Source: Bacillus nitratireducens (lineage in GTDB: Bacteria; Bacillota; Bacilli; Bacillales; Bacillaceae_G). Taken from it: a stretch of DNA of 64,000 nucleotides. The notes beneath the pieces are model-generated. The model was not told the origin of the DNA. It saw only the letters and a program-made list of their open reading frames with translations, and made no database searches. This document shows, piece by piece, positions 16,688-59,102 of this stretch (the first letter of the stretch is position 1; each line of letters starts with the position of its first letter). A program made the translations under genes and the position numbers. The stretch is taken from contig NZ_MAOC01000081.1 of NCBI RefSeq assembly GCF_001884135.1, positions 62,001-126,000 of the forward strand. The letters run 5' to 3'.

Positions 16688-17056
16688 ATGTCTTGTGAGT
16701 GCTCAGGGTCAGCATTAACTTGTTGTCCAGATAAAAATTATGTACAAGATAAAGTGTGTAGTCCGTGGTCTGCTACTGTAGTTGCAACAGCAATTGATAA
16801 TGTTCTTTATACAAATAATATTAGCCAAAATGTAGTTGGTACTGGTTTTGTTAAATATGATGTTGGTCCAGGTCCAATTACTGTAGAAGCGCTTGATTCT
16901 GCTGGGGCTACAATTGATACACAAACATTAAACCCAGGAACGAGTATTGCTTTCACGTATCGCCGCTTTGATAGTATACAAGTTGTGTTACCTGCAACAC
17001 CTGCTGGAACGTATCAGGGAGAATTTTGTATTACAACACGTTATCCACTTTCATAG
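16688..17056 (+). CDS. ena1A: Endospore appendage subunit Ena1A (DUF3992)
   Basis: 122 residues. It has a flexible Cys-rich N-terminal connector (MSCECSGSALTCCPDKNYVQDKVC) followed by a jellyroll-like beta domain ending YQGEFCITTRYPLS. This matches the S-type endospore appendage (Ena) subunits of B. cereus, in which cysteines of the N-terminal connector crosslink to cysteines of other subunits in the helical fibre. It pairs with ena1B 20 bp downstream; GAGAGGGG lies upstream of the ATG. It is expected to be expressed during sporulation, but I cannot assign a clear sigma-factor promoter. Confidence 0.9.
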   Translation: MSCECSGSALTCCPDKNYVQDKVCSPWSATVVATAIDNVLYTNNISQNVVGTGFVKYDVGPGPITVEALDSAGATIDTQTLNPGTSIAFTYRRFDSIQVVLPATPAGTYQGEFCITTRYPLS

Positions 17057-47058: not shown

Positions 47059-47251
47059 CATACCTCTCGATAGCTCTCCACAAACGAAACGTTTGTGACA
47101 GTTCTGCACTTATTAAATGCAGACCCAGCAAGCGTGCATGGTGGACACGACTTACTTCGGCAATCATTCCTTTCTCATTTCTTCATCAATGCCACTACAT
47201 CTCCTGAAATGATACTCTTAATGACTGCAACCTCTACCTCACCGAGATACG
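47059..47251 (-). ncRNA. Lysine riboswitch (L box)
   Basis: On the minus strand P1 is CGTATCTC paired with GAGGTATG (47251-47244 with 47066-47059). Between them are GAGGTAGAGGTTGCAG, the AAGAGTAT element, GAAAGGAATGATTGCCGAAG and CTGGGTCTGC, all in L-box order. Size about 193 nt is normal. A terminator follows, so lysine should cause premature termination ahead of the permease gene. Confidence 0.92.
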
Positions 47252-56749: not shown

Positions 56750-56953
56750 TTATTTTTGGAATCCGCCAAGGCTTTGCTCAGCCATTGCAACTAGACGTTT
56801 TGTGATTTCTCCACCAACAGAACCGTTAGCACGAGCCGTAGAATCTGCTCCTAATTGTACACCAAATTCTTGAGCGATTTCGTACTTCATTTGATCGATT
56901 GCAGCTGTTGCTCCTGGTACTACTAATTGATTGTAAGAACTTTGGTTTGCCAT
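56750..56953 (-). CDS. sspB: Alpha/beta-type small acid-soluble spore protein
   Basis: 67 residues. [15 protein letters not shown] at the start, the GPR-protease cleavage region [11 protein letters not shown] and the DNA-binding segment [30 protein letters not shown] are diagnostic. It saturates DNA in the forespore and protects it against UV and heat, then serves as an amino acid store at germination. The position between bmrCD and yheD matches sspB of B. subtilis. AAGGAGG lies upstream. Its sigma-G-type promoter lies beyond a tRNA-like element (see 56990-57094). Confidence 0.93.
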
Positions 56954-56989
56954 AGGAATATATCCTCCTTAGAGTTATAAAAATTTTTT

Positions 56990-57043
56990 TGGTTGGACTA
57001 GCTGGATTTGAACCAGATTATCGCCCCGTTTGGCGCTAATCCA
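56990..57043 (-). ncRNA. Compact tRNA-like element with encoded CCA
   Basis: On the minus strand TGGATTA (57043-57037) can form seven pairs with TAGTCCA (57000-56994). A discriminator A and CCA follow (56993-56990). Between them is a T-arm CTGG-TTCAAAT-CCAG with the GGTTCAAATCC consensus, and one hairpin CGCC-AAACGG-GGCG. There is no D arm and no normal anticodon arm, and the total is only about 54 nt. GATTA/TAATC flanking the hairpin offers an alternative fold. It may correspond to the pseudo-tRNA / 'tRNA-Other' annotated in B. cereus-group genomes; this identification is from memory. Confidence 0.65.
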
Positions 57044-57065
57044 TCGGTAATTAAGTTTGTACTCA

Positions 57066-57094
57066 TAGTATGGATGTTACCTAGAAAGATATAC
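57066..57094 (-). promoter_or_regulatory. Candidate sigma-G promoter for the tRNA-like element and sspB
   Basis: Minus strand GTATA (57094-57090), 17 bp, CATACTA (57072-57066). It fits the sigma-G consensus (GNATR / CATNNTA) and would start about 105 nt upstream of the SASP start codon, before the tRNA-like element. Confidence 0.55.
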
Positions 57095-57379: not shown

Positions 57380-57625
57380 ATGGGAATTTGCCCGCTTTGC
57401 AACGCATTAGAATCACAAACATATTCTTGTCAAAATTGCCAAGGTATACTCCAAGATTATGGGAAAACTGTAGATTACATAGACGATTATAGTGCGTATA
57501 TGGATCAAGAATTATTGCGTGCAGTAGATGGTTTAACACATAGTAATTCACAAGAGTACTGCAATCATGTTTTTTATTGCGGGATGTGTAATGTGGAAAC
57601 AGAGGTTGTAGTGAAACTTGTGTAA
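57380..57625 (+). CDS. Small zinc-ribbon-like protein
   Basis: 81 residues with two N-terminal CxxC pairs (CPLCN, CQNCQ) and a later C...CGMC (YCNHVFYCGMCN), suggesting one or two zinc sites. The middle is acidic (DYIDDYSAYMDQE). TGGAGGAA lies upstream of the ATG. It occupies the place of yheE in the B. subtilis yhe block but does not look like it. Unknown function; possibly sporulation-related by position. Confidence 0.72.
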   Translation: MGICPLCNALESQTYSCQNCQGILQDYGKTVDYIDDYSAYMDQELLRAVDGLTHSNSQEYCNHVFYCGMCNVETEVVVKLV

Positions 57626-57627
57626 AT

Positions 57628-57664
57628 AGAAAACTTCCACCTTATGAGTGAGGTGGAAGTTTTT
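57628..57664 (+). terminator. Bidirectional terminator
   Basis: AAAACTTCCACCT-tatgagtg-AGGTGGAAGTTTTTG, between convergent genes; it overlaps the yheD 3' end. Confidence 0.9.
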
Positions 57665-59102
57665 GTTTTTTTATTTGTGAGTTAATCATAGGGGACGGGA
57701 TATTGTCAGTGTTAGGTGCAGGATTTGATTGTATTTGAGATATTTTTTCTTTCGAATCGCGCAAAGAGTGTTCAGTTAAATAGATGGCATATTCATAAAA
57801 TAATTGGCGCGTAAGCTCGCTTTGTTCTTTTAACTTTTCATCTTGGAATACAGTTCGCCCCGGTTTAGAATTTGCTTCAAATAACCACGGATTTTCTGCT
57901 GTATCTAAACCGATATCGAAACCAATCTCTCCAATGTTCCCGGTTACTTGCCCGTCAAGTGCATAGCTGATTTGTAAGGCTGTTTGTTTTAGTTTATTTT
58001 CAATTTGAACTTGCTTTGTTGAATCGGGAAATAGTTCTTGAAGTAATTTCGTATCACCGCCGCTATTTACATGAGTCGTTAAGCTACCTTTGCCGGCGAT
58101 TTTTGCGACGATTGCACTGACTACCCAATTACCAAAATGGTTTTTATTTGTATGAATGCGAAAATCGACGGGTTGCCCTTCGAAGCGGAGCAATGAGATA
58201 CCTTGTTGTACGATAAACTTTTTTAAATCATGTCCTTTTAACACATGGTTAAGAAGTGCTTCTAATGATTGATACTTTCTTAGTTTATTTTGGTCATTTT
58301 CACGATAACGACAATAGTAGCGATTTTCAGTTTGAGAATAGAGTATTTGATGAATGTTTCTTCCAAAGCTACCATGTATCGGCTTCATATAAATGTACTT
58401 ATACGTACCGAGAAGTCGTTCTACTTGTTCAAAATGTTGAAATACTTCTGTTTTTGGTAAGAATGGTTTCATTGAATCTTCTTTCATTAGAAGGCGATGC
58501 ACTTCCCATTTGTTGAAAAACCCTGGATTAAACCATGGAATCGCATAGTCGCATTCTAATCGTTTTTTTGCTCTTATGATAGGTTTGTAATTTTCTGCTT
58601 GGCGATTTGGTAAACGGTCGTAAATGACATTTGGTAAAGGGACTTTGTTTTTTACCCATTTGCTATCTTGAAAGAAGTACCCTTCAATTGTTTCCTCTTC
58701 CCAGTTTATATGTTGAAGGCCAAAGACAAATACAAATGGCTGCAATGTGAATGGTGGTGTTAATAATTCACCGAGAGAGATGGAACGACTCCCTAAAGGA
58801 GAATTAGAATCATCGTTAAAGCCAGTTGTGAAAATCCCGATTAATGGGCCGAAAACAATGGTTTGATTGTGTAAGAAGGCATGGATTGTTGCTGAATGCG
58901 GTAGTAAAAGATCGGCTGCAATCTGTTCGCCAATAATAATTTCTCGCGTGAATGAATAATGAATTTTAATATTCTCACATGCAATATAACGTAAGCCAAA
59001 GGAAAGGGATGTAATTGGCGGTGTAATAGAAAAAACGTAAGGTAAAGTAATACTATTTGGATGCTCATCTGAAATACTTAATGTATATATGTGCTCTTTC
59101 AA
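57642..59102 (-). CDS. yheD: YheD-like ATP-grasp protein, spore coat associated
   Basis: 486 residues. The N-terminal half (about 1-190) belongs to the YheC/D family. The C-terminal ATP-grasp fold (about 195-445) has KPIHGSFGRNIHQI, QGISLLRFEGQPVDFRIHTNKN and the metal-binding ...GEIGFDIGLDTAENPWLFEANSKPGR. Family members are endospore-coat-associated proteins of unknown ligase activity. A Ser/Pro/Lys-rich tail of about 40 residues is extra compared with B. subtilis YheD (about 453). Follows yheC on the same strand (19-bp gap). Confidence 0.85.
   Translation of the reverse strand: MKEHIYTLSISDEHPNSITLPYVFSITPPITSLSFGLRYIACENIKIHYSFTREIIIGEQIAADLLLPHSATIHAFLHNQTIVFGPLIGIFTTGFNDDSNSPLGSRSISLGELLTPPFTLQPFVFVFGLQHINWEEETIEGYFFQDSKWVKNKVPLPNVIYDRLPNRQAENYKPIIRAKKRLECDYAIPWFNPGFFNKWEVHRLLMKEDSMKPFLPKTEVFQHFEQVERLLGTYKYIYMKPIHGSFGRNIHQILYSQTENRYYCRYRENDQNKLRKYQSLEALLNHVLKGHDLKKFIVQQGISLLRFEGQPVDFRIHTNKNHFGNWVVSAIVAKIAGKGSLTTHVNSGGDTKLLQELFPDSTKQVQIENKLKQTALQISYALDGQVTGNIGEIGFDIGLDTAENPWLFEANSKPGRTVFQDEKLKEQSELTRQLFYEYAIYLTEHSLRDSKEKISQIQSNPAPNTDNIPSPMINSQIKKQKLPPHS

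Follow-up and report, generated by a model that had tools for sequence, protein, structure and literature searches.

A conserved tRNA-like element in the predicted leader of an alpha/beta-type SASP gene

The SASP locus and its tRNA-like element

We analyzed a stretch of 64,000 nt from Bacillus nitratireducens (referred to as the window; all positions are window positions). On its minus strand a sigma-G-type promoter, a 54-nt tRNA-like element, a Shine-Dalgarno sequence and the reading frame of an alpha/beta-type SASP follow each other in this order, and the element has the SASP gene, a GlnQ-like gene and YheC/YheD-type genes as neighbours. The name sspB and its linkage to yheCD, which we take from B. 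subtilis, are the basis for naming the SASP gene, and the name YheC/YheD for the frame at 57642..59102 is likewise presumed. The features are the following:

56750..56953, minus: alpha/beta-type SASP gene, 67 aa (reading frame and homologues; sspB-type by neighbourhood)
56954..57059, minus: predicted 5' leader of the SASP mRNA (start placed about 7 nt past the -10 box from the promoter position)
56964..56970, minus: Shine-Dalgarno sequence AAGGAGG of the SASP gene (from the sequence)
56990..57043, minus: tRNA-like leader element, whole, 54 nt, ending in A73-CCA (model R2, fold)
56990..56993, minus: discriminator A and encoded CCA (RCCA in 118 of 121 elements)
56994..57000, minus: acceptor stem, 3' strand TAGTCCA (covariation)
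57001..57017, minus: T arm TCTGG-TTCAAAT-CCAGC with U55 (outermost pair mismatched)
57022..57035, minus: internal hairpin CGCC-AAACGG-GGCG at the D-arm position (fold; counts of D-like hairpins)
57037..57043, minus: acceptor stem, 5' strand TGGATTA (covariation)
57066..57094, minus: sigma-G-type promoter GTATA-N17-CATACTA (exact match)
57380..57625, plus: 81-aa reading frame with CxxC pairs (neighbour conserved across genera, tblastn)
57642..59102, minus: YheC/YheD-type reading frame (neighbour in some relatives)

The promoter was called with what we take to be the sigma-G consensus, and GTATA-N17-CATACTA was the sole match on the minus strand of the window for hexamer-like boxes at a spacing of 15-19. 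The CCA of the element is separated from the SASP ATG at 56953 by 36 nt. Upstream of SASP genes we also observed a motif [AT]TTACCA, present in 52 of 113 regions (L001-L115 and the window) compared to 4 of 113 on the other strand and 143 of 3308 control windows; a -10-like box followed the motif in 36 regions, and 32 of these had a gap of 32-35 nt between motif and box. The SASP upstream region of the window has TTTACAAAATTTACAAAT in its place. This motif could be a site for an activator that works on sigma-G SASP promoters.

Read on the minus strand from 57043 to 56990, the element is TGGATTA-GCGCCAAACGGGGCGATAA-TCTGG-TTCAAAT-CCAGC-TAGTCCA-A-CCA. In standard tRNA numbering the acceptor stem extends from U1-A72 to A7-U66 and is followed by A73 and CCA74-76, the distance from the T loop to the CCA is canonical, and the outermost T-stem pair (49-65) is mismatched in this copy. 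The 54-mer folds with -18.0 kcal/mol compared to a shuffled mean of -11.0 (z -2.55; 4 of 200 shuffles equally stable), which taken alone is only moderately unusual. The sole internal hairpin lies at the D-arm position and 114 of 116 elements of the family described below can form a D-like hairpin there, from which it follows that the missing arm is the anticodon arm. The window copy is a reduced one-hairpin form without anticodon arm. An earlier reading of this DNA, made from the sequence only, had noted that both the D arm and a usual anticodon arm were missing; the latter is indeed absent, while the single hairpin takes the place of the supposedly lacking D arm.

Established detection tools were applied to the window and to related loci. 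ARAGORN found no tRNA in the window and called only 1 of 121 distinct elements given with 60-nt flanks (L118, as tRNA-Arg), and on this count an ordinary tRNA overlooked by chance was set aside. At gathering score, none of 4227 Rfam families matched the window element, and no match was obtained in any of the 16 element loci scanned. A permissive threshold gave one match of chance level in the window (cow-rumen-4, 16.9 bits, E 1.7), and membership in a known Rfam family was set aside. The only Rfam family that reached its gathering score in the window was the lysine riboswitch (RF00168) at 47063-47244 on the minus strand with 132.3 bits. One exact degenerate pattern, too strict for variants including the window copy, had 0 matches in IMG/VR contigs, and a plasmid search with a 701-base query returned SASP-gene matches with a best coverage of 25%.

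Distribution and structure of the element family

A search with an SASP protein query provided a sample of at least 80 loci from named species; the 80 analyzed include none with a B. cereus-group label. A first descriptor, which matched 100 of 3112 control windows, gave way to a second one composed of the T arm and a 7-bp acceptor. Of 113 distinct regions upstream of SASP genes, 28 contained tRNA-like elements by this second descriptor, and the matches nearest to the SASP gene had T54 at -48 to -60 relative to the start codon; the background was 65 matches in 4682 generic 250-nt windows, true elements included. The elements of L001, L076 and L079 were added by eye and afterwards scored by model. 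From 25 of the 32 collected elements (alignment A1, including the window element, excluding flanks and omitting six proximal copies without CCA as well as L066) we built the covariance model R1. For a second model, R2, we took 40 elements from other genomes and excluded the window (alignment A2). The rows of A2 are later genome matches picked by hand for variety; the one nearest to the window element differs from it by 19 edits, and one (L153) duplicates both an A1 row and the named locus L072. The whole collection of 146 elements (106 genome hits, the named loci, two loci of an R1 search in five genomes, three loci of the family labelled G001, and the window) was reduced to 121 distinct elements by identity of the element plus 60 nt downstream, and to 116 by the element alone. 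L011 and L042, which are mainly of the proximal type without CCA, are outside the 121 and were counted as element-bearing in the comparison of neighbours.

R2, which was built without the window, recovered the window element with 35.3 bits (E 4.8e-6 in 64 kb), confirming the tRNA-like element with 7-bp acceptor, T arm, discriminator A and CCA that the sequence-only reading had described. A second R2 match in the window (16766-16825, minus strand; 15.1 bits, E 0.18) is probably due to chance. In the 80 named loci (489 kb) R2 gave 32 hits at E up to 1, all shortly upstream of an SASP start, in a run that is less independent as A2 holds one identical copy and near relatives.

Next, R1 was applied to 299 genomes of the order under stricter filtering, at the cost of weak matches; 106 of them gave a single match each at E<=1e-5, and a run from another centre matched 105 of the 299, largely the same genomes. 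Within the class 19 of 398 genomes matched, hence the element is confined to part of it. An SASP frame was located downstream of all 106 genome-wide hits; since the named loci had been pre-selected upstream of SASP genes, this genome-wide search serves as the specificity test, with some of the 106 genomes holding training elements. By a motif test on the translation, an alpha/beta SASP frame follows each of the 121 distinct elements, and for the window this agrees with the earlier placement of the element in a predicted SASP leader under a sigma-G-type promoter (57094-57066). The SASP start lies 12-38 nt past the element in 108 of the 121; in 12 of the other 13 a second T arm intervenes, and the remaining one (L231) has an SASP frame that seems shifted near its start. 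The L231 element is unusually long with 111 nt. A -10-like CATA[ACT][TG]A was found at most 70 nt upstream of 80 of the 121 elements compared to 8.85 on average and at most 12 in 20 rounds of shuffling, and the other 41 have no such match within this distance, part of them showing near variants. In five whole genomes the best R1 hit was the SASP leader element in four (52-63 bits) and the fifth had none; R1 gave eight weaker hits there (75 nt, 31.6-41.7 bits), and in those loci ARAGORN identified eight tRNA-Gln genes.

No R1 match at E 1e-5 was obtained in 193 of the 299 genomes of the order. Twenty of these were checked: all 20 have SASP genes, and in four a weaker element was found beside an SASP gene (three of the four were read). 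The real frequency of the element in the order therefore exceeds 106 of 299, and a genome can have SASPs without it. Among 19 genomes in the G001 family, six have a match covering all or part of the element. Bearers within Bacillus are B. halotolerans (L071), B. haynesii (L068), B. safensis, B. zhangzhouensis and B. tianshenii, and beyond this genus we found the element in Ectobacillus, Neobacillus, Heyndrickxia, Weizmannia, Geobacillus, Anoxybacillus, Metabacillus, Cytobacillus, Domibacillus and an Alkalihalobacillus MAG; Mesobacillus (L042) has only the type without CCA. In 35 of the 80 loci the SASP gene has the CxxC frame or a YheC/YheD frame as neighbour, and the element occurs in 22 of these 35 compared to 4 of the 45 others. 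This ties the element to the CxxC/YheC-YheD neighbourhood and thereby to the sspB-type paralogue. The 13 loci with such a neighbour and without the element include Halobacillus, several alkaliphiles and Gottfriedia. At L009/L081, L019/L082, L092, L093 and L094 a divergent second SASP gene adjoins the element-bearing one; it has a short leader in which no element was seen.

In alignment A1 94.6% of the cells pair, and the number of changes on both sides of a pair is 38 compared to 10.0 +/- 2.4 after shuffling (0 of 500 as high). For A2 we observed 39 compared to 8.4 +/- 2.5 (0 of 500 as high), a value that leans to the R1 stems because the A2 members were found with R1; in both alignments the cells count sequences, not events. 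The conservation of acceptor and T stems, on which the sequence-only reading had made its claim depend, is thus evident from their covariation. RNAalifold on A2 recovered the T stem and six of the seven acceptor pairs; the D-like stem was not recovered, which leaves the D-like arm on weaker evidence. When acceptor and T stems were enforced, 108 of the 121 elements folded as a four-arm cloverleaf with two hairpins between the stems, 12 (52-60 nt) had one hairpin and one had a shifted acceptor. The D-like hairpin possible in 114 of 116 elements, mostly of the GCC/GGC type, was possible in 66 of 116 with shuffled middles, and the middle segments fold with greater stability than when shuffled (mean z -1.95, n=104, 56 within the best 5%).

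The end is RCCA in all except three of the 121 elements (ACCA 87, GCCA 31), the T loop has U54 in 121, C56 in 118 and A58 in 120, and position 55 is G in 103 and U in 18, the window included. The acceptors mostly start with U1-G2-G3. Upstream of them, C is present at -3 in 103 of 121, and CAT (35) and CGA (32) are the commonest triplets right before U1. From the canonical tRNA the elements retain the 7-bp acceptor, the 5-bp T stem (with the outermost pair mismatched in the window) and RCCA. For the most part they lack the 7-nt-loop anticodon arm with a defined anticodon, the arm being absent in the window, as well as the elbow of U55 and G18-G19, although the window itself has U55; of 114 D-like loops, 18 contain GG. 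The elements do have the acceptor/T stack and the RCCA expected of an RNase P substrate. Judged by these comparisons, it is nearly certain that the conserved tRNA-like element in the SASP leader is real.

Tandem tRNA-like elements occur at L023, L038, L039, L046, L050, L062, L136, L137, L149, L154, L176 and L182. The distal copy ends in CCA in 10 of the 12 pairs, and the proximal copy, which adjoins the SASP gene, has a TTC T loop and is without CCA at 74-76. At L135, L144, L186 and L191 we noticed by eye an inverted repeat CGCCAGC/GCTGGCG just 5' of the element.

Relation to tRNA-Gln and to known tRNA-like RNAs

We compared the acceptor 5' strand and the last 28 nt of the elements with 86 tRNAs from eight loci, a set without tRNA-Ile in which tRNA-Gln is over-represented (8 of 86) because the loci had been chosen for an R1 hit on tRNA-Gln. 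The window element agrees with tRNA-Gln(UUG) at 29 of the 35 letters compared and with none of the other tRNAs at more than 21, and 112 of the 121 elements have tRNA-Gln as their best match. The likeness to Bacillaceae tRNA-Gln (UUG) covers the acceptor TGG..TA, the GCCAA start of the D arm, the T arm and the 3' end. In contrast to tRNA-Gln, the element has an anticodon arm that is missing or without the standard loop, a short D-like loop, mostly G55 (103 of 121) and R73 that is mostly A, and it is situated inside an mRNA leader. The tRNA-like structure is probably derived from tRNA-Gln, going by these shared letters. The same 29 of 35 letters would fit a neutral relic of a tRNA-Gln gene, for instance an old attachment site, but two-sided changes in the stems among many genera and the position upstream of an SASP gene in 121 of 121 cases make this very improbable, and the covariation led us to set a relic tRNA or attachment site aside.

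The sequence-only reading had also linked the element to tRNA-Other of B. cereus. Both are tRNA-like, the window probably belongs to the B. cereus group judging by its genes, and tRNA-Other is described as a pseudo-tRNA that is part of larger transcripts. According to the parts of the report available to us, however, tRNA-Other of B. cereus ATCC 14579 has a Trp anticodon, lies with a thioesterase ORF immediately 5' of it and flanks a pathogenicity island, and similar sequences are given for several B. cereus-group genomes and for no other organisms (PMC3399842). The window element has no anticodon arm, stands beside an SASP gene and has relatives in many genera, and in those parts of PMC3399842 we found no mention of an SASP gene, sspB or spores. 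Set against this published description, which differs in anticodon, genomic place and range, the link is not supported, and the two are almost certainly not the same RNA.

We know of no RNase P-cut bacterial mRNA that carries an RCCA cloverleaf conserved throughout an order in its leader. Viral 3' tRNA-like structures and the tRNA-like domain of tmRNA are RNase P substrates (PMC11143913, PMC12710915, as far as these sources were available), and tmRNA is aminoacylated (PMC3985003, in the part available). Like these, the element is a tRNA mimic with a CCA within another RNA; unlike them, it is not a 3' end or a stable RNA that is aminoacylated, being situated in the 5' leader of a bacterial mRNA. 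Operon mRNAs and riboswitch transients are examples of bacterial mRNAs cut by RNase P in the accessible part of PMC11143913, and the element resembles them as a candidate RNase P target inside a bacterial transcript.

The non-proteinogenic cell-wall tRNA-Gly of staphylococci has G55 in its T loop, as do most of the elements, but it is complete, charged with glycine and encoded by a separate gene. The T-loop sequence of this special tRNA-Gly was not found in the portions of PMC4052509 and PMC4810233 at hand. Several other candidates were discarded on the accessible parts of the respective sources: the strongest leader of PMC3651082, Phj3, belongs to rplU and not to an SASP gene; the sRNA Bvs196 (PMC9147052) sits between hinT and ecsA and not in an SASP leader; PMC13317604 mentions no ssp genes; and PMC2916919 has no bearing on the SASP leader. 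In the open full-text literature we found, among the matches listed, no description of a tRNA-like element in an SASP leader, and the element appears to be an undescribed RNA element.

A possible role of the element in SASP expression

The sigma-G-type promoter implies that the transcript would be made in the forespore. The linkage to one gene, the placement between promoter and Shine-Dalgarno sequence and the lack of a second strong copy argue for a function in cis. As a tentative reading, to which we assign a probability of roughly 40%, the element may be a cis-acting tRNA-Gln-like leader domain of the sspB-type SASP mRNA that is cut by RNase P and shields the mRNA. Bacterial RNase P reads the acceptor/T stem, with RCCA pairing to the P15 loop, and mRNAs as well as tRNA-like structures serve as its substrates (PMC11143913, PMC12710915, each seen in part). 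Since the most conserved parts of the element are the determinants of RNase P and the parts for decoding are degenerate, trimming at U1 is favoured. RNase P would cut before U1, as the acceptor/T stack with RCCA suggests, and the trimmed SASP mRNA would start with a closed tRNA-like helix. Capped in this way, it might be poorly attacked from the 5' end and persist in the forespore. TruB, EF-Tu and the ribosome read features of tRNAs, and the change of U55 to G together with the lost anticodon may keep the domain off all three.

Some observations speak against this RNase P-trimmed cap. With GG in few D-like loops and mostly G55, a true tRNA elbow is doubtful, and recognition by RNase P may be weakened. 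Since CCA also acts as a block to RNase Z, the CCA end could equally be such a block, or an end for aminoacylation. The tandem proximal copies have no CCA, and the conserved C at -3 is unaccounted for.

The conservation evidence is the same for a leader structure that acts in cis without RNase P cleavage, its stable fold shielding the 5' end or keeping the ribosome site open, and the position just before the Shine-Dalgarno sequence would suit it. We nevertheless regard it as doubtful: a plain hairpin would do for this purpose, whereas the kept stack of 7 + 5 bp, the T-loop letters and RCCA ask for a reader of tRNA shape. Such a reader could also be a protein that binds the leader and controls SASP translation, for instance GluRS, GatCAB, EF-Tu, the CCA enzyme or a spore protein such as an SASP, in line with the tRNA-Gln-like acceptor and T arm and the conserved T-loop letters. 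These partners are putative, and G55 and the absence of an anticodon argue against synthetases and EF-Tu, given their known roles. A protein site of this kind is distinctly unlikely.

A trans-acting small RNA is another unlikely explanation. RNase P and 3' trimming would excise a CCA-ended tRNA-like RNA that acts in the forespore and is perhaps charged, which would account for the nearly invariant RCCA, for U1 with the tRNA-Gln-like acceptor and for G55, which is shared with the staphylococcal cell-wall tRNA-Gly. On the other side, none of the 106 genome-wide hits (E<=1e-5) lies away from an SASP gene, and the proximal tandem copies carry no CCA. A crude longest-stem search found a 7-nt loop in only 4 of 84 middle hairpins, one of them with TTG, so there is no decoding arm, which also argues against an excised RNA.

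For the RNase P-trimmed leader domain, one possible, rather speculative origin is that a tRNA-Gln gene was captured in an ancestral sspB leader and became a tRNA-mimic cap that was retained in much of this spore-forming order. RNase P would trim the transcript in the forespore, and a tRNA-recognising factor would then read the mostly G55 domain with its RCCA and keep the SASP mRNA in store until the spore matures or for dormancy. To our knowledge, no counterpart of such a tRNA-mimic mRNA cap has been described in a bacterial leader.

Alpha/beta-type SASPs coat the spore DNA and are central to spore resistance. A tRNA-shaped leader with covarying stems before one SASP gene in more than 100 species implies a post-transcriptional step in the production of these proteins, of which we found no description in the literature searched. 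The element would also be an example from nature of a tRNA that was converted into part of an mRNA, and it may sharpen the view of what RNase P and other readers of tRNAs need in vivo.
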